Origin: a virus
Virus record (IMG/VR): IMGVR_UViG_3300020385_000065
Coordinates: 1-22,916 of that record
Reading direction: 5' to 3' (one strand)
DNA length: 22,916 nt
Shown here in pieces: positions 3,018-11,340 of this stretch. The notes under the pieces are model-generated. The model made no database searches. It had not been told where the DNA came from and worked only from the letters and a program-made list of their open reading frames with translations. The position numbers were made by a program, and so were the translations under genes. How positions within the stretch are numbered: the first letter of the stretch is position 1; each line of letters begins with the position of its first letter.

Positions 3018-4601
3018 ATGGGCGTTCGATCTGCATGGCGTGAATTGTGGCGCTCAAATCCTGAGCCAATGCCGCGGCCTAAGTCCCGCATGTTTGGCGC
3101 TGCGCAAGCAAGTCGTCTTACGAGTGATTGGGTCACTTCTGTAACTTCTGCCGACCAAGAGATAAAAGGCAGCCTTAAGCGTCTGCGGTCTCGCTCGCGT
3201 CAGCTTGTTCGAGATAACGATTACGCCAAGTCAACTGTTCGCGTTGTTCGCAATTCTGTTGTTGGCACTGGCGTCAGATTGCAGGCGCAGATTAAAAGAC
3301 AACGTGGCGGAAAGCTAGATACAAGGATTAACGAACAAATTGAAAAGGCTTGGTCTGATTGGGGCCGTAAGGACAGTTGCAATACGGCAGGTCAATTGTG
3401 CTTTGCCGATGTTGAAAAGCTTGCTGTTTCGTCAATGTGCGAAAGCGGCGAAGTTTTTGTACGCATCGTTCGTCAAAAGTTTGGTCGTAGCAAGGTCAAC
3501 TTTGCCCTTGAAGTTCTTGAGGCCGATCAACTAGACGAGGATTATCAAAGTCCTGCTCGCACGGCTGGGTCTGTATGGCGGATGGGGATTGAAATTGACC
3601 GTTTTGGTCGAGCCCTTAATTATGCGTTTTTAAGCCATCACCCTGGGGACACTGCATTTCCAACGCAAGCAAAAGAACGCCGGCACATAATTGTCCCTGC
3701 CAAAGATGTTGTCCACTTGTTTGACCGTGCATCTGGTCGCCCTGGTCAGACCCGTGGGGTGCCTTGGCTTGCAAGCGGAATGCAGCGGATGCACCACCTA
3801 GATGGATGGGAGCAAGCAAGCGTTGTGCGTGCTCGCGCCAGTTCTGCATTGATGGGATTTATTCAATCGCCAGAAGGTGAGCTTGATCCAGGCGGTGAGG
3901 TTTATGACGGTGAGCGTGTTTCAGGGTTTGAGCCTGGGCAGTTCAAGTATTTGCAGCCCGGCGAAACGGTGACGATTCCAGACATGGACTCGCCAACTGG
4001 AGAGTACGAACCATTTCTTAGAGCACAGCTAAGAGCCCTGGCCTCTGGGGTTGGGTGCAGTTACGAAACGATTAGTAACGATTATTCACAAAGCAATTAC
4101 AGCTCATCACGGTTGGCCTTGCTGCAGGATCGCGACAACTGGCGGTCGATTCAGCAATTGATGCGTGAGCAGTTCTATCAGCCGATCTATGACGCTTGGC
4201 TGGAGATGGCGGTGCTTAGCGGTGCCTTAAGTCTGCCTACTTACGAAACTGAACCTGAACGATATGAGGCCGTTCGCTGGGTTTTCCGTGGATATTCTTA
4301 CGTTGATCCGCAAAAAGAAATCAACGCACAAAAGGATGCAGTGCGCAGCGGATTTAAAACTCTTGCTGATTGTGTCGCTGAAAACGGCGGCGATCTCGAT
4401 GAATTGCTTGTTGCTCGTCAGGCAGAGCTAGCCAAGCTTGATGAGATGAACATCATTACGGACACTGACCCTTCAGCGGTTAATGGTTCTGGCGCTAGCC
4501 AGTACAAACCAGTTAATACAGTTGACGCTTTTGGAGACACTCCGCCTCCATCAGGAGCTGATGCTGAAAACGTAGGTGAGGAAGAAAGCGGAGACTATTA
4601 G
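3018..4601 (+). CDS. Portal protein, lambda B type
   Basis: Dodecameric ring at the capsid vertex through which DNA enters and to which the tail attaches. The 527-residue product matches the lambda portal family. It has an N-terminal LRSRSRQLVRDNDYAKSTVR block followed by NSVVGTGVRLQ, a central block around RASGRPGQTRGVPWL and LDGWEQASVVRAR, and a later block YLQPGETVTIPDMDSP leading into SYETISNDYSQSNYSSSRLA, which is close to the family consensus. The last 50 residues are acidic, Pro/Ser-rich and probably disordered. ATG 3018 has GTGAGG about 7 bases upstream. It ends 25 bases before the ATG of the protease-capsid gene, and the gap is filled by a palindrome. Confidence 0.95.
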   Translation: MGVRSAWRELWRSNPEPMPRPKSRMFGAAQASRLTSDWVTSVTSADQEIKGSLKRLRSRSRQLVRDNDYAKSTVRVVRNSVVGTGVRLQAQIKRQRGGKLDTRINEQIEKAWSDWGRKDSCNTAGQLCFADVEKLAVSSMCESGEVFVRIVRQKFGRSKVNFALEVLEADQLDEDYQSPARTAGSVWRMGIEIDRFGRALNYAFLSHHPGDTAFPTQAKERRHIIVPAKDVVHLFDRASGRPGQTRGVPWLASGMQRMHHLDGWEQASVVRARASSALMGFIQSPEGELDPGGEVYDGERVSGFEPGQFKYLQPGETVTIPDMDSPTGEYEPFLRAQLRALASGVGCSYETISNDYSQSNYSSSRLALLQDRDNWRSIQQLMREQFYQPIYDAWLEMAVLSGALSLPTYETEPERYEAVRWVFRGYSYVDPQKEINAQKDAVRSGFKTLADCVAENGGDLDELLVARQAELAKLDEMNIITDTDPSAVNGSGASQYKPVNTVDAFGDTPPPSGADAENVGEEESGDY

Positions 4602-4602
4602 A

Positions 4603-4620
4603 ATCAGAAATATTTCTGAT
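4603..4620. promoter_or_regulatory. Perfect 18-bp palindrome between portal and protease genes
   Basis: ATCAGAAAT followed by ATTTCTGAT is an exact inverted repeat with no central spacer. It starts two bases after the portal stop and ends six bases before ATG 4627. As DNA it is a possible operator for a dimeric protein. As RNA it could form a 7-bp stem with an AUAU loop next to the start codon and affect initiation. No Shine-Dalgarno sequence precedes ATG 4627. Function is inference. Confidence 0.45.
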
Positions 4621-4626
4621 CGAACA

Positions 4627-6804
4627 ATGACCGACGATCTGACAAGCAGGGCAGCGCCTGACGGTTTAAGCGTCGGTGATTTTGTTCAATGGGACAGTTC
4701 TGGTGGCACTGCCAAAGGCAAGATTGACAGCATTGAACGCGATGGTTCAATTAATGTGCCTGGCTCTGAGTTCACTATTAATGGTGACGAAGATGATCCT
4801 GCAGCGTTAATCACTGTTTATCGCGAAACAGACGAAGGTTTTGAAGCAACAGACGTTAAAGCCGGTCATCGTTTTTCAACGTTGACCAAAATTTCTGCAT
4901 TGCGTTCTGCTACTTCATTGCTGAAACGGGCTGGGGAAACTCAGTTTGAGGAGCAGGAGGACCGAGTTATGGAGTTTAGCTTTAGCTCTGAATATCCAGT
5001 TGAACGCTCTTTTGGTTCAGAGGTCTTAAGCCATGACAAAGACGCCGCAGATTTGAGCAGATTGAACGACGGCGCACCGCTTTTGTTTAATCACGACATG
5101 GACCGGCCAATTGGTGTTGTTGAGCGTGCTTATCTTGACGACGACAAAAAGAAAGGCGTAAGCCGTGTTCGCTTTAGCCGCAACTCTTTTGCGCAAGAAA
5201 TTTTAGCGGACGTTAAAGACGGAATAATGCGCAATATCTCCTTTGGTTATCGGATCAAAGAGATGGAAGAGCGCAACAACGAATTTGTGGCAACTTCGTG
5301 GGAGCCCTACGAAATCAGCGTCGTAAGTGTCCCCGCTGATCCAAACATTGGCGTGGGGAGATCTTTGCTTTCAGACACTACAATGGACAAAGAAACAGCC
5401 TCTGAGGTTGATTCTGCGGCTCGCGTCGCACCACTCACACAACCCGATTCTGAGAATCAAATGTCCACAGCACCCGATCTCAACGTGGTGCGCGATGAGG
5501 CTTCCAAAAAGGCTGCCTCTTCAGAGCGTACCCGCATCAAAAACATCCAAGAGCTTTGCGGCAAGCACGAAATGCGTGACCTTGCTGAGCAGCTGATTGA
5601 TAACGGCAGCAGCATTGATGTTGCCCGTGCAGCTGTTCTCGAAAAGATTGGCTCCAAGCCTGTTGAAACTGTTGCTCCTGTTGACCTTGGTCAGCAGACC
5701 CAAGAGCGTTATCAGCTGATCGATGGCGTCCGCGCTTTGATCACTGGTGATTGGTCATCGCATGGCGCTGGTCTTTGCCGTGAGCTGAGCCAAGAAGTTC
5801 AGCGCAGCTCTGGCATTGCTGCCACGAGTGAGCGTTCCTTCTTTGTTCCTTTCTCTGCGCTGTCACAACGCGCCACCTACGTCACTTCTGGCGCAACGAC
5901 CGGCGGCAACCTTGTTGCGACCGATCTGCTGGCTGATGACTTCATTGAAGCCCTGCGGAATGCTTCACCTGTAGTTGGCCTGGGCGTTCGCACACTGACC
6001 GGCTTGGTTGGTGATGTTGCAATCCCTCGCCGCTCTGGTGTTTCCAGCACCTACTACCTGTCTTCTGAGACAACCGCGATCACACAGTCGGAATCTACTT
6101 TCGACCAGATCACGATGAGCCCCAAGAACCTTGCGGCTCTTTCCAAGTACAGCCGTCAAACCTTGCTTCAGGGCACACCTGGCATTGAAGAGCTTGTGCG
6201 CCGCGATCTGACCGATGGTCTCAACGCTGCTGTTGATGCTGCGATTCTGAACGGTTCCGGTTCTTCCGGTCAGCCAACAGGCATCCGCAACACTTCTGGC
6301 ATTGGATCCGTTGCGATGGGAACCAACGGTGGTTCATTGACCCTTGAAAAAGTGGTTGATCTAGAAACTGCCATCACAGAGGACAACGCCTTTGGTCCAA
6401 ACATGGCTTATGTCACCAACGGCAAGGTCGTTGGCGGGCTGAAGAAACTTCGCGCTGGTGGTTCTTCTGCAACTGATGGTGCTTTCCTCTACAACTCGGA
6501 TCTTTCCGCTATTGGTCGTGGCCCAACGCCTTTGACCCTTAACGGTTATCCCTTGGCAGTAACCAACGCTGTCCCTTCTAACTTGACAAAGGGTTCTGCT
6601 TCCAGCGTTTGTTCTTCCTTGGTTGCTGGTGACTTCAGCCAGGCCATGATTGGTTTCTATGGCAACGGCCTGGAAATCACTGTTGGCACCGATGGAGATG
6701 ACTTCTCCAAGGCGTTGTCATCTGTCCGCGGCATCATTTCATTCGACGTTGCAGTTCGCCAAGCATCGGCATTTGCATCGATCGAAGATATCACCACCGC
6801 TTAA
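4627..6804 (+). CDS. Tudor-like domain / prohead protease / major capsid protein fusion
   Basis: One 725-residue polyprotein. Residues about 15-89 (SVGDFVQWDSSGGTAKGKI ... DDPAALITVYR ... GHRFSTLTKI) resemble small Tudor/SH3-like modules found in phage proteins. Residues about 113-250 are a U35-type prohead protease, with probable catalytic His156 in LFNHDMDRPIGVV, Ser205 in RNISFGYRI and an acidic residue near 226-229 in SWEPYEISVVSVPADP. After a polar linker, residues about 293-350 are a helical, scaffold-like delta region. Residues about 360-725 are an HK97-fold capsid protein (VTSGATTGGNLVATDLL, TDGLNAAVDAAILNGSGSSG). The expected outcome is shell assembly, then self-cleavage releasing protease and delta region. 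An in-frame GTG at 4576 inside the portal gene would add 17 residues. ATG 4627 is preferred because the longer form would encode the palindrome. Codon use in the capsid part is visibly GC-richer than in the distal tail genes. Confidence 0.93.
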   Translation: MTDDLTSRAAPDGLSVGDFVQWDSSGGTAKGKIDSIERDGSINVPGSEFTINGDEDDPAALITVYRETDEGFEATDVKAGHRFSTLTKISALRSATSLLKRAGETQFEEQEDRVMEFSFSSEYPVERSFGSEVLSHDKDAADLSRLNDGAPLLFNHDMDRPIGVVERAYLDDDKKKGVSRVRFSRNSFAQEILADVKDGIMRNISFGYRIKEMEERNNEFVATSWEPYEISVVSVPADPNIGVGRSLLSDTTMDKETASEVDSAARVAPLTQPDSENQMSTAPDLNVVRDEASKKAASSERTRIKNIQELCGKHEMRDLAEQLIDNGSSIDVARAAVLEKIGSKPVETVAPVDLGQQTQERYQLIDGVRALITGDWSSHGAGLCRELSQEVQRSSGIAATSERSFFVPFSALSQRATYVTSGATTGGNLVATDLLADDFIEALRNASPVVGLGVRTLTGLVGDVAIPRRSGVSSTYYLSSETTAITQSESTFDQITMSPKNLAALSKYSRQTLLQGTPGIEELVRRDLTDGLNAAVDAAILNGSGSSGQPTGIRNTSGIGSVAMGTNGGSLTLEKVVDLETAITEDNAFGPNMAYVTNGKVVGGLKKLRAGGSSATDGAFLYNSDLSAIGRGPTPLTLNGYPLAVTNAVPSNLTKGSASSVCSSLVAGDFSQAMIGFYGNGLEITVGTDGDDFSKALSSVRGIISFDVAVRQASAFASIEDITTA

Positions 6805-7732: not shown

Positions 7733-7900
7733 ATGGAAGATGAAAACTTGGGTCAAGGGGGTGCATACCTTGTTGACCCAAAAACCGGCAAACGAAAGCT
7801 CATTGAGCGGACTCAGCCGGCTCAACCTACTAGCCCCAATTTTGAGGTTGTAACCGATGACACTGAGGACGAGTCAACGCCTATTGCTGGCGAAGATTGA
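7733..7900 (+). CDS. Short 55-residue protein upstream of the tail tube gene
   Basis: A 55-codon frame runs from ATG 7733, one base after the preceding stop, to TGA 7898-7900. The product starts MEDENLGQGGAYLVDPKTGK, then RKLIERTQPAQPTSP and an acidic end (TDDTEDESTPIAGED). Short proteins with a GGxYxxDPxTGK-like opening occur just before tail tube genes in other siphophages, in my recollection, without a known role. It has AAGG about 8 bases upstream, and its coding sequence holds the tube gene's ribosome-binding site (GAGG at 7844-7847). It overlaps the tube gene by 44 bases in another frame. The function is unknown. Confidence 0.6.
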   Translation: MEDENLGQGGAYLVDPKTGKRKLIERTQPAQPTSPNFEVVTDDTEDESTPIAGED

Positions 7901-8789
7901 AAGTAGCTACGGGTCTGACCCAACAGCTGCAGGCACTGATGCGGTTTTAGTCCGCAACATGGAAATCACTCCGCTGCAAGCTGATGCTGTTGAGCGTGAA
8001 TTGATCCGTGGCTACATGGGCAACTACGACATTTTGCTTGCCAACCAGCGAGTTGAGATCTCGTTTGAGGTTGAGCTGGCAGGCTCTGGGGCTGCAGGCA
8101 CAGCACCTAAGTGGGACGCAATTATCCGTTCTTGTGGCAACTCGGCAACAGTGGCGGCTGGCACATCGGTCACTTATGCGCCAATCAGTGCATCATTTGA
8201 AAGCTGCACCCTTGAGTATTTTGTCGATGGGGTTCGTCACAAGTTGACTGGCTGCCGTGGCAGCTTTGCAATCACAGGCGAAGTTGGGCAGATCCCTGTG
8301 ATTAATTTCACGATGACGGGATTGTTTAACGCGCCAACTGACACAGCAAACCCAAGCACGACTTACGCAAACCAGGCCGCGCCGGTCATTTTCAAAAACG
8401 GCAACACCACAAGCTTTACCTTGTTTAGCTACGCAGGTGCCTTGCAGTCCTTCAGCTTTGATCAGTCCAATGCGATTGTTTATCGCGAATTGGTTGGTAG
8501 CACTAAGGCGGTTGAGATTACTGACCGACGGCCCAATGGCACGATTGTGCTTGAGGCTGAGTTGCTTGCCACGCATAACTTCTTTACTGATGCAACTGGA
8601 ACTAGCACCGGAACAAACACGTTCCAGCATGGTCAATCGGCTGGCAACATTGTCACCTTTAGCGCCCCACAAACTGACCTAGGTTCACCAACCTATTCAG
8701 ATTCTGACGGCATCCAGATGTTGAACTTGCCTTACAACGCAACGCCAACAACTGCAGGGAACAATGAGTACAGCATTGTCTGCACTTAA
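7857..8789 (+). CDS. Major tail tube protein
   Basis: The 310-residue product forms the stacked rings of the non-contractile tail tube. It begins TLRTSQRLLLAKIESSYGSD and has the family pattern PLQADAVERELIRGYMG, then EISFEVELAGSGAAGTAPKW and ITGEVGQIPVINFTMTGLF, strongly like long tube proteins of siphophages. Ala/Thr/Ser-rich beta segments fill the C-terminal third. ATG 7857 has GAGG nine bases upstream. Tape measure and chaperone genes follow, as expected. A 34-base gap ending in six T separates it from the chaperone gene, without a convincing hairpin. Confidence 0.88.
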   Translation: MTLRTSQRLLLAKIESSYGSDPTAAGTDAVLVRNMEITPLQADAVERELIRGYMGNYDILLANQRVEISFEVELAGSGAAGTAPKWDAIIRSCGNSATVAAGTSVTYAPISASFESCTLEYFVDGVRHKLTGCRGSFAITGEVGQIPVINFTMTGLFNAPTDTANPSTTYANQAAPVIFKNGNTTSFTLFSYAGALQSFSFDQSNAIVYRELVGSTKAVEITDRRPNGTIVLEAELLATHNFFTDATGTSTGTNTFQHGQSAGNIVTFSAPQTDLGSPTYSDSDGIQMLNLPYNATPTTAGNNEYSIVCT

Positions 8790-8823: not shown

Positions 8824-9168
8824 ATGGCATTCGTCCTTAAGAAGTCAAATACTTACAAGTGGCCTGTTTCTGTGGATGTTCCTGTTGATGGGGGCAAACA
8901 CGAACGGGTCACTTTTGATGTTGAGTTTAAAGACTTGACTCAGAGCAGGCTTTTGGAAATTGCGGAGCTAAGCGCAGAGGGCAACCTGACGGATGTTGAG
9001 ATTGCCCGTGAAGTAATTATGGGCTGGATTGGTATTGAGGACGAGGACGGCAAAGAACTTCCCTACAGCATTACAAAACGAGACGAGCTGTTAGATGTGC
9101 CAATGCTGGCTACAGCAATTGCTGGAGCTTATTTGGAGAGCAAACAGGGAGCCAAGAGAAAAAACTAA
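8824..9168 (+). CDS. Tail assembly chaperone (lambda G-like)
   Basis: The 114-residue product (MAFVLKKSNTYKWPVSVDVP ... VTFDVEFKDLTQSRLLEIAEL) is the short form of the tail assembly chaperone, which coats the tape measure and recruits tube protein before release. It lies between tube and tape measure genes and its last sense codons form an A AAA AAC slippery site followed by TAA, the hallmark of the G/G-T arrangement. ATG 8824 is preceded directly by TTTTTT with no Shine-Dalgarno sequence. The exact family is not otherwise recognised, but role and position are strongly supported. Confidence 0.88.
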   Translation: MAFVLKKSNTYKWPVSVDVPVDGGKHERVTFDVEFKDLTQSRLLEIAELSAEGNLTDVEIAREVIMGWIGIEDEDGKELPYSITKRDELLDVPMLATAIAGAYLESKQGAKRKN

Positions 9169-9198
9169 GCGAGGCCGTTGAGTATCTGTTCAGCGGTC
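9159..9198 (+). promoter_or_regulatory. -1 programmed ribosomal frameshift signal
   Basis: The heptamer A AAA AAC (9159-9165) is in the zero-frame phase required for tandem -1 slippage (codons AGA AAA AAC), followed at once by the stop TAA. Bases 9166-9172 are a 7-nt spacer. Bases 9173-9182 (GGCCGTTGAG) can pair with 9189-9198 (TTCAGCGGTC) in a 10-bp stem with three G-U pairs and a six-base loop. Slippery site, spacer length and stem all fit known -1 signals. The downstream frame is open across the site. Confidence 0.9.
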
Positions 9199-9488
9199 CA
9201 AGAGACCAAAGCCAATTAAAGGCAGACGCCAAGGCGTTTGGATTGGTGCTGCCTGAGATAAAAGAAGAGCACTTTGAGGTATGGGAGGAAAATTGGCCCG
9301 CTGTCGAGATGTTCTTGCGTTGCCAAACCCAGTGGCGCACCACAATGTCTGGCGTTTGCGGGTTGGACTATACAGCTGTGCAATGGCTGTTTAAACTGTA
9401 TGAAGTCAAGGATCAGCCAGCCGTGCTAGAGGACTTGCAAATCATGGAATCGGCTGCGATGAAAATTTTGAACAAGGAGAGCAAGTAA
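9165..9488 (+). CDS. Frameshift extension of the tail chaperone (G-T fusion, DUF1799-like)
   Basis: These 107 codons are read in the -1 frame after slippage, giving a G-T protein of about 221 residues (8824-9165 joined to 9165-9488). They begin LSEAVEYLFSGPRDQSQLKA. The core VWEENWPAVEMFLRCQTQW, then MSGVCGLDYTAVQWLF, matches the DUF1799-type proteins usually found at this position. In lambda the T part binds the tube protein and the G part the tape measure, and a fixed G to G-T ratio is needed. No ATG begins this reading frame near its start. The first initiation codon is a TTG at 9243 with no clear ribosome-binding site, so independent translation is less likely than frameshifting. It ends one base before the tape measure ATG. 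Confidence 0.85.
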   Translation, partial: LSEAVEYLFSGPRDQSQLKADAKAFGLVLPEIKEEHFEVWEENWPAVEMFLRCQTQWRTTMSGVCGLDYTAVQWLFKLYEVKDQPAVLEDLQIMESAAMKILNKESK

Positions 9489-9489
9489 T

Positions 9490-11340
9490 ATGACTGCCAA
9501 GTTTGGGATGCTGATCAGCGCCAAAACGACTGGTGCAAACGATATAAAACGCCTTGGAAACTCCATGCAGGGCGTGCAGGGCAAGGCCAAAAACCTTGGC
9601 ATGGCGGTCAAAGGCGTTGGCCTTGCTTTTAAAGCAATGTTTGCCGCTGCTGCCATTGGTGGTATTACGGCGTTTGTGAAAAGCTCTATTGATGCGGCCG
9701 ATGCTCTTGGAAAGCTTGAAGTAAGAACTGGCATTGCTGCTGCAAAATTGCAGTCTTATGTCAACGCCGGCAAGCTTGCAGACGTTTCACAAAAGCAATT
9801 GGCTACGGGATTAAAAACGTTGGCCCGTACGCAACTTGAAGCCGCTGATGGTGTGGCCACCTATGCAGACGCTTACAACAAGCTGGGAATAAACGTTAAA
9901 AATTCTGACGGCACTATTAAGCAAAGTGATCAGCTGTTGGGCGAAATTGCTGACACGTTTGCAACCCTGCCTGACGGGCCAGAAAAGACCGCTATTGCTT
10001 TAGACATTTTTGGCAAGTCTGGCGCTGACATGATTACCATGCTCAACGGCGGCAAAGCAGCACTTGAAGAGTTTAACTATCAATTAAGCGACAGATTTGC
10101 TCAAAATGCAGAATATTACAACGATCAAATTACCAAACTTGGGTTTAAATTTGAAGGCTTTAGAATGCAATTAGCAGATGCTTTGCTTCCTGCCTTAAAT
10201 GCAATAACAGAAGTTTTTGCCGATCTGTTTGCTAGTGGGCAAGATTTTACGCCGTTGTTTAAAGTAATTGAAGGTGGGGTTAGAGGGGTGTCTTCGGTTG
10301 TGCTTGGATTAGTGCAATCAATGAAATTTTTTATAAGGGTTATTCGTGATTTAGTTAATATTGCAACATTGGTAGGTCAACGCAAATTTGGAGAAGCGTT
10401 TGACGTAGCAAAGACTGGACTGGCTGATACAGGCGCTCAATTTTTTATTGATTTAGAGGCTCAGCGAAAAGTTTTATTTGGCACTTCTGAAGCTCCAGAT
10501 GGATATGGCAGAAGGACTGGACGGACTTTGCAGACTTTGCCGTCAAATGATGACGAAAAAAGCACAAGTAGTAATAAAAAACAACAAAAACAACAAGTGC
10601 AAGCTTCAGACGCATTGCTTGAACTAACAAAACAAATTAATTTAGAAAAAATTAAAGGCAACGAATTTGCTTTGGCAAATTTAGAATATGACAAGGCAAT
10701 ATTAAAAATTCAAGAAGATGGGTTAACAGGCAACAACAAAGAAATTGCTTTGTTAAACGCACAATCAAAACTTAACGAAAACAAATTACAACTTCTTAGC
10801 GGATCAGTTGATAAAACAAAAGAGTTAAATAAAGAAACTGAAAAAACTAACGGTCTTTTTGAGTCAATTAAAAGCACTGTTGCAACAGGACTTGCCAACG
10901 CCATTGAAGGTTTAATTGATGGCACAAAATCATTAAGTGAATCTTTGTCTGGTGTATTAAGGCAAGTTGCGTCTTTGTTCTTACAAGCTGGAACAAGCTC
11001 TTTGTTTGGTTCAATCTTCCCTTCAGCCAACGGCAACGTATTTGCTCAGAACGGCATAGTCCCTTATGCCAAAGGCGGTTATATAGGCCGCCCAACAATG
11101 GCGTTAATGGGGGAGGCAGGACCTGAAGCCGTGTTGCCTTTACGGCGTGGAGCTAACGGGAAACTTGGTGTTGAAGCTTCTGGCGGTGGTGTGGGTAACG
11201 TAGTGGTGAACGTTGATGCTTCTGGCTCTAACGTGCAAGGAAATCAGGCTGACGGTAAAGCTCTTGGCTCTGCAATTGGTGCAGCCGTACAGGCTGAGCT
11301 GATCAAACAAAAACGACCTGGAGGACTTTTGGCAGGCTAA
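9490..11340 (+). CDS. Tape measure protein
   Basis: The 616-residue product sets tail length and sits inside the tube until ejection. AAGGAG lies about 10 bases before ATG 9490. The N-terminal 60 residues include hydrophobic stretches (AMFAAAAIGGITAFV), and a further hydrophobic region lies near 255-300. Residues about 360-470 are Lys/Gln/Asn-rich and likely coiled coil. The C terminus (about 530-616) shows GYIGRPTMALMGEAGPEAVLPL followed by Gly-rich sequence, the lambda-type tape measure C-terminal domain. At roughly 0.15 nm per residue, this predicts a tail near 90 nm. Bases 10621-10860, within the coiled-coil part, are only about 28% G+C against about 52% in a sampled part of the capsid gene. 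Confidence 0.93.
   Translation: MTAKFGMLISAKTTGANDIKRLGNSMQGVQGKAKNLGMAVKGVGLAFKAMFAAAAIGGITAFVKSSIDAADALGKLEVRTGIAAAKLQSYVNAGKLADVSQKQLATGLKTLARTQLEAADGVATYADAYNKLGINVKNSDGTIKQSDQLLGEIADTFATLPDGPEKTAIALDIFGKSGADMITMLNGGKAALEEFNYQLSDRFAQNAEYYNDQITKLGFKFEGFRMQLADALLPALNAITEVFADLFASGQDFTPLFKVIEGGVRGVSSVVLGLVQSMKFFIRVIRDLVNIATLVGQRKFGEAFDVAKTGLADTGAQFFIDLEAQRKVLFGTSEAPDGYGRRTGRTLQTLPSNDDEKSTSSNKKQQKQQVQASDALLELTKQINLEKIKGNEFALANLEYDKAILKIQEDGLTGNNKEIALLNAQSKLNENKLQLLSGSVDKTKELNKETEKTNGLFESIKSTVATGLANAIEGLIDGTKSLSESLSGVLRQVASLFLQAGTSSLFGSIFPSANGNVFAQNGIVPYAKGGYIGRPTMALMGEAGPEAVLPLRRGANGKLGVEASGGGVGNVVVNVDASGSNVQGNQADGKALGSAIGAAVQAELIKQKRPGGLLAG

Follow-up and report, generated by a model that had tools for sequence, protein, structure and literature searches.

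A probable lambda G/GT-type tail-assembly chaperone gene with a stop-adjacent programmed -1 ribosomal frameshift signal in an IMG/VR-type virus record

Do the two overlapping reading frames at 8824-9488 of this virus encode two separate proteins, or one tail-assembly chaperone that a minority of ribosomes extend by a -1 frameshift? The window, i.e., the whole stretch of DNA analysed here, comprises the 22,916 bases of an IMG/VR-type virus record and carries a lambda-type morphogenesis module in the order of terminase, portal, protease-capsid, tail terminator, tail tube, G/T gene, tape measure and tail tip proteins. All features described below are on the forward strand. The upstream neighbour of the locus (7857-8789) encodes the major tail tube protein (PF18906 Phage_tube_2, E 1.8e-20), and the downstream neighbour (9490-11340) encodes the tape measure protein (phrog_8462 tail length tape measure protein, 4.3e-43). 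The locus was assigned to the G/GT tail-assembly chaperones because it lies between these two genes, and tail tube, G, T and tape measure is the gene order characteristic of such chaperones. Judging from its sequence, the region 8824-9488 is very probably a lambda G/GT-type tail-assembly chaperone gene with a programmed -1 ribosomal frameshift signal. A -1 frameshift into a DUF1799 extension had been read here by the first-pass annotation, and it is still the best reading when sequence, phase, gene order, conservation and covariation are taken together. The closest named relatives of G are the Synechococcus phages S-CBS1, S-CBS3 and S-LBS1, and the host of this phage is probably a cyanobacterium. 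In the same module, a single ORF (4576-6804) contains both the Peptidase_S78 prohead serine protease and the Phage_capsid major capsid protein, which appear to be fused within one reading frame, and its N-terminal part matches the Hva1_TUDOR domain.

The zero-frame ORF, 114 aa plus stop (8824-9168), ends with the codons GGA GCC AAG AGA AAA AAC TAA. Together, A (9159), AAA (9160-9162) and AAC (9163-9165) match the X XXY YYZ pattern exactly and in the phase of this ORF, and the zero-frame stop TAA (9166-9168) abuts the heptamer. There are 28 in-phase XXXYYYZ heptamers in the CDSs of the contig, of which the one at 9159-9165 is the sole AAAAAAC and the sole one abutting a stop. The -1 frame is open from this in-phase heptamer near the end of G to 9488, which is the arrangement of the T frame in G/GT genes. 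The complete cassette described in the first-pass annotation, i.e., phase, heptamer, immediate TAA and a stem of 9173-9182 with 9189-9198, was recovered in full, and the stem distance that was called ideal there is a 7-nt spacer including the stop codon (9166-9172), within the usual range of 5-9 nt (PMC5009743). Upstream of the slip site, AGGGAG (9146-9151) is a possible Shine-Dalgarno-like stimulator. Its motif is completed by the Gly codon at 9148-9150. Relatives have GGA there in 94 of 100 cases, although GGA accounts for a minority of the Gly codons of the contig; the energy of the Shine-Dalgarno-like duplex is 0.9-1.3 kcal/mol better than in synonymous shuffles, with a standard deviation of about 2.

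The slip site and its adjacent stop are strictly retained among relatives. IMG/VR was queried with both parts, G and T, and 160 loci had a readable junction, some of them sharing a contig. AAAAAAC was in place with the stop directly adjoining in 160 of 160 loci, which represent 89 distinct 81-nt segments with near-duplicates included; the search patterns are degenerate at the DNA level and partly overlap the junction peptides, so that relatives with similar residues may have been favoured. The stop itself varies among TAG, TAA and TGA while its adjacency is constant, which indicates that adjacency rather than a particular stop is kept. Two sets of named phages, chosen for homologous T parts, were also inspected for either A AAA AAC or G GGA AAC abutting the stop. 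The first set was positive in 12 of 13 (S-CBS1, S-CBS3, S-LBS1, RcapMu, RcWaterboi, Vibrio ZX4290, Pelagibaca P1, Rhodovulum P1, RC1, Susuwatari, HK639 and PS-1) with Kp3 as the exception, and the second in 9 of 10 (T1, phiES15, MED16, Sloth, EcoS-2004III, R656, Kenya-K19, phiAH14a and mar001J1) with Snyder as the exception. Most of the prophages found in bacterial genomes also have one of these two heptamers adjacent to the stop. A disrupted heptamer with an intact frame, which the first-pass annotation had named as the observation that would speak against it, was absent from the 160 close and intermediate relatives; it was seen solely in a few distant phages with DUF1799, such as Snyder and Kp3, which are T1-like relatives. 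Klebsiella phage Snyder (L307, 640-669) reads GCA AAA GTT TAA with no standard heptamer, and a frameshift product is still annotated by its depositors. Kp3 (L173, near 1504) reads CAA AAG CAC TAA, a TAA-adjacent junction without a standard heptamer. Two atypical junctions were also seen just upstream of DUF1799 matches, GGG AAA ATC TAG in Candidatus Nitrotoga (L291) and, in Photorhabdus australis (L289), eight consecutive A followed by CTAA; the latter might be a decayed copy or another kind of slippage.

The hairpin downstream of the slip site consists of a 5' arm (9173-9182), a loop (9183-9188) and a 3' arm (9189-9198), with ten consecutive standard pairs of which three are G-U. RNAfold returns exactly the hairpin of 9173-9198 at -13.6 kcal/mol, and the RNAalifold consensus adds one pair, leaving a loop of 4 nt. 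Folding z-scores are -4.15 when 32 nt are folded and -2.98 with 40 nt, and they weaken to -1.28 once the context is lengthened to 86 nt; 2.4% of the 40-nt windows of the contig fold equally well. Perfect stems of at least 10 bp with a loop of 3-8 nt start at 16 of 45,772 positions on both strands of the contig. The hairpin region has no match in Rfam even at E 1. As compared to synonymous-codon shuffles of the window sequence alone, the hairpin is marginal and unremarkable (p = 0.10), and for this reason the case for a hairpin beyond chance rests on the relatives. Compensatory changes in the stem, which had been proposed as a check on the first reading, were found once the far clade was included. 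The near clade alone gives weak covariation with one double change, and its score is reached by 34 of 500 shuffles. With the near and far clades combined into 59 sequences, pairing in the 7-bp core amounts to 97.8% and doubly changed cells number 31 versus 4.4 in shuffles. In all 500 shuffles, the paired percentage, the double-change counts and the covariation score stayed below the observed values. Pairing falls to 20-77% when the partner is slid by 1-3 columns. Synonymous change is also reduced, with pS of 0.33 in the hairpin codons versus 0.62 just downstream. The stem-loop starts within 5-9 nt past the heptamer and is kept via compensatory change, as in dnaX-type signals.

The position of the stem edge is also shared among distant phages. 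In 30 diverse loci the stem edge is at nt 8 past the heptamer, the combined folding z-score is -6.6 and the pair-opening probability goes up sharply between nt 7 (0.33) and nt 8 (0.78), numbers which are descriptive because these loci were picked for a stop-adjacent heptamer and are related by descent. The step between nt 7 and nt 8 is 0.45, as compared to a maximum of 0.25 among 300 synonymous-shuffle replicates, and it is 0.48 versus 0.24 without the window clade and the cyanophages. In loci L047 and L065, the stem is rebuilt from a different sequence at the same place (p 0.003 for L047, synonymous shuffles). These two loci (about 1940-2000) are apparent recombinants; their G part is about 85% identical to that of the window and their T part about 65%, and they have extra codons near the junction and keep the heptamer.

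It could be argued that the frameshift is real and that the hairpin is not its stimulator but a by-product of coding or an element of some other RNA role, the heptamer and the stop setting the rate. The marginal single-sequence significance and the weak covariation of the close clade fit this explanation, and so do several lineages which keep heptamer and stop without a hairpin: among DUF1799 phages and prophages, no good hairpin was found in Janthinobacterium, Rugamonas, Massilia, Thorsellia or PS-1 despite their stop-adjacent heptamer. Among the cyanophages, S-CBS1 and S-LBS1 have strong hairpins, and no comparable local hairpin was found in S-CBS3 within 40 nt. We nevertheless consider a hairpin without a stimulating role unlikely, as this is opposed by the covariation across clades, by the stems rebuilt in the two apparent recombinants, by the reduced synonymous change, and by a stem edge that is fixed at nt 8 in distant phages, inside the 5-9 nt spacer range (PMC5009743). 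Since the hairpin is missing in some lineages, it cannot be universally required, and a lineage-dependent stimulator is the reading we prefer. Across the DUF1799 family, a few lineages are without a stop-adjacent heptamer and some are without a hairpin.

The heptamer of the window contains six consecutive A, and since slippage is known to occur at poly-A runs, the polymerase might add or drop an A and some mRNAs would then encode the fusion without any shift of the ribosome. Six A are short for efficient polymerase slippage. The eight A of the Photorhabdus relative would suit such a mechanism, but the run is no longer than six in any of the 160 loci, and GGGAAAC replaces AAAAAAC at the same place in RcapMu, RC1, PS-1, phiAH14a, R656 and Massilia, which keeps the two-tRNA rule without a long homopolymer. 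This replacement fits ribosomal slippage of two tRNAs, not polymerase slippage. Given the constant length of the A run and the GGGAAAC substitutes, transcriptional slippage was rejected as very improbable.

Both parts of the predicted ribosomal frameshift product are homologous to known chaperone parts. The G part is similar to Phage_TAC_4 (E 0.0018, weaker than the family cut-off), phrog_569 (6e-17) and phrog_313 tail assembly chaperone (1.1e-4). It is 46% identical to the S-CBS1 homologue, 30-46% across S-CBS1, S-CBS3 and S-LBS1, and similar to RcWaterboi gp47, which is annotated as a chaperone. The extension in the -1 frame (9165-9488) is 107 aa plus stop, and its DUF1799-like nature, suggested by the first-pass annotation, was borne out by PF08809 (E 2.4e-19) and phrog_680 (7e-33). 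The predicted fusion consists of 114 zero-frame residues followed by the -1 frame, which would give a gpGT of about 221 aa. The DUF1799 domain is likewise carried by the frameshift product in the Snyder annotation, and DUF1799 occurs in 1,095 phage records. In 71 near relatives, codons 1-26 past the heptamer have a pN/pS of 0.25 in the -1 frame versus 1.26 and 2.42 in the other frames; the corresponding values in the far clade are 0.25, 1.33 and 1.79. In several public records a separate DUF1799 gene is assigned, and a large part of the constrained region lies before its assigned start. No start codon position in the -1 frame common to all relatives was found. A fusion is therefore favoured over reinitiation, and two separate genes with the DUF1799 ORF translated by reinitiation or coupling after the TAA, as annotated with a downstream start in the S-CBS1, S-CBS3, RcapMu and T1 records, were rejected as scarcely credible because the -1 frame is constrained from the first codon past the heptamer, no start is shared, and the invariant heptamer, phase and adjacent stop would be superfluous for reinitiation. 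Some public labels on homologues are likely misannotations: both phrog_569 (G) and phrog_680 (T) carry the label 'tail length tape measure protein', and in S-LBS1 the G chaperone (L162, 1501-1881) goes under the name of ABC cobalamin/siderophore transport ATPase.

Under the frameshift reading, the majority of ribosomes would read AAA AAC and terminate at the TAA to give gpG of 114 aa. The 10-bp hairpin at the mRNA entry, its edge 7 nt past the heptamer, would hold a minority of ribosomes, which would slip back by one base, and tRNA-Lys and tRNA-Asn would re-pair on AAA AAA. The shifted ribosomes would then read CTA AGC GAG and onwards to 9488, giving gpGT, whose C-terminal part would be the DUF1799 (T) domain. 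If the proteins act as in lambda, gpG would coat the tape measure protein while tail-tube subunits would be recruited by the T domain (PMC5009743). Termination at the stop adjoining the heptamer is probably in competition with slippage and probably helps to set the G:GT ratio. In bacterial as well as human cells, -1 frameshifting at the HIV-1 slip site is lowered when the next codon is replaced by a stop, and it is modulated by release factor (PMC4373837); by the same token the adjacent stop may tune the G:GT ratio here. A point against the frameshift reading is that A_AAA_AAC is much less slippery than A_AAA_AAG in E. coli constructs (PMC5009743); this lower slipperiness may be the reason that the stimulator is kept or regained. 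Tentatively, and with more doubt than confidence, we propose that the DUF1799 chaperones derive from one ancestral stop-coupled cassette with an AAC-ending two-tRNA heptamer, a stop as the codon that follows, and a stem whose edge is fixed at nt 8. In such a cassette, competition of the release factor would set gpG:gpGT, and the hairpin would have been lost and rebuilt by lineage.

The frameshift is a well-known phage device, and -1 frameshifting between G and T is widely conserved (PMC5009743). A_AAA_AAC is used by the archaeal virus HCTV-2 (PMC5009743), AAAAAAC and GGGAAAC have been noted for phiCbK-like phages and Colossus (PMC3556154), and 6-7% frameshifting was reported in the HK97-related chaperone cluster (PMC3711429). 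Slip site and stop are on average 26 nt apart for the SEA-PHAGES set, and 36 nt apart for the Xu phages (PMC10885494). Frameshift annotations are carried by the RcapMu and Snyder records. A literature search for DUF1799 together with frameshifting retrieved nothing from the texts accessible, the survey of Xu et al. 2004 being represented through citing papers, and the accessible parts of the literature held no statement that a stop-adjacent heptamer with a stem edge at nt 8 is family-wide in DUF1799 chaperones. The arrangement has already been reported for the single phages Loki and KL1; the fresh part, for which no priority is claimed, is the strict retention of slip site, stop and hairpin spacing across distant phages. 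For this phage and its uncultured relatives, the result allows the tail chaperone to be entered as a single frameshifted gene, and homologues labelled tape measure protein or ABC transporter ATPase can be corrected. The family-wide stop at the slip site with the stem edge at nt 8 also offers a testable case of termination versus frameshifting in setting stoichiometry.

As compared to lambda G/GT, the locus is likewise placed between the tail tube and tape measure genes, a -1 shift late in G adds the T domain, and the fusion product is presumed to be made at a low level (PMC5009743). It differs in that the heptamer is A AAA AAC and not G GGA AAG (the lambda heptamer according to the first-pass annotation), the stop abuts the heptamer, a conserved hairpin follows, and the T domain is DUF1799. 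In Acinetobacter phage Loki (and IME_AB3), AAAAAAC also adjoins the chaperone stop, as noted in PMC5313236; unlike here, an HK97 gp10-like gene lies between the chaperone and the tape measure, and a hairpin is not discussed in the passage concerned. In gp18/gp19 of Burkholderia phage KL1, the slip site is immediately before TGA and a downstream stem-loop is predicted (PMC3483164), whereas its heptamer is GGGAAAC, a tail gene intervenes before the tape measure, and the stem-loop came from one sequence without covariation. The cyanophages S-CBS1, S-CBS3 and S-LBS1 have AAAAAAC TGA at the same place, but are annotated as separate genes. E. coli dnaX shares the A-rich heptamer, the downstream hairpin and a possible upstream Shine-Dalgarno-like element (PMC3711429); its heptamer is A AAA AAG and its shift shortens a subunit, whereas the shift predicted here would extend the protein past the adjacent stop.
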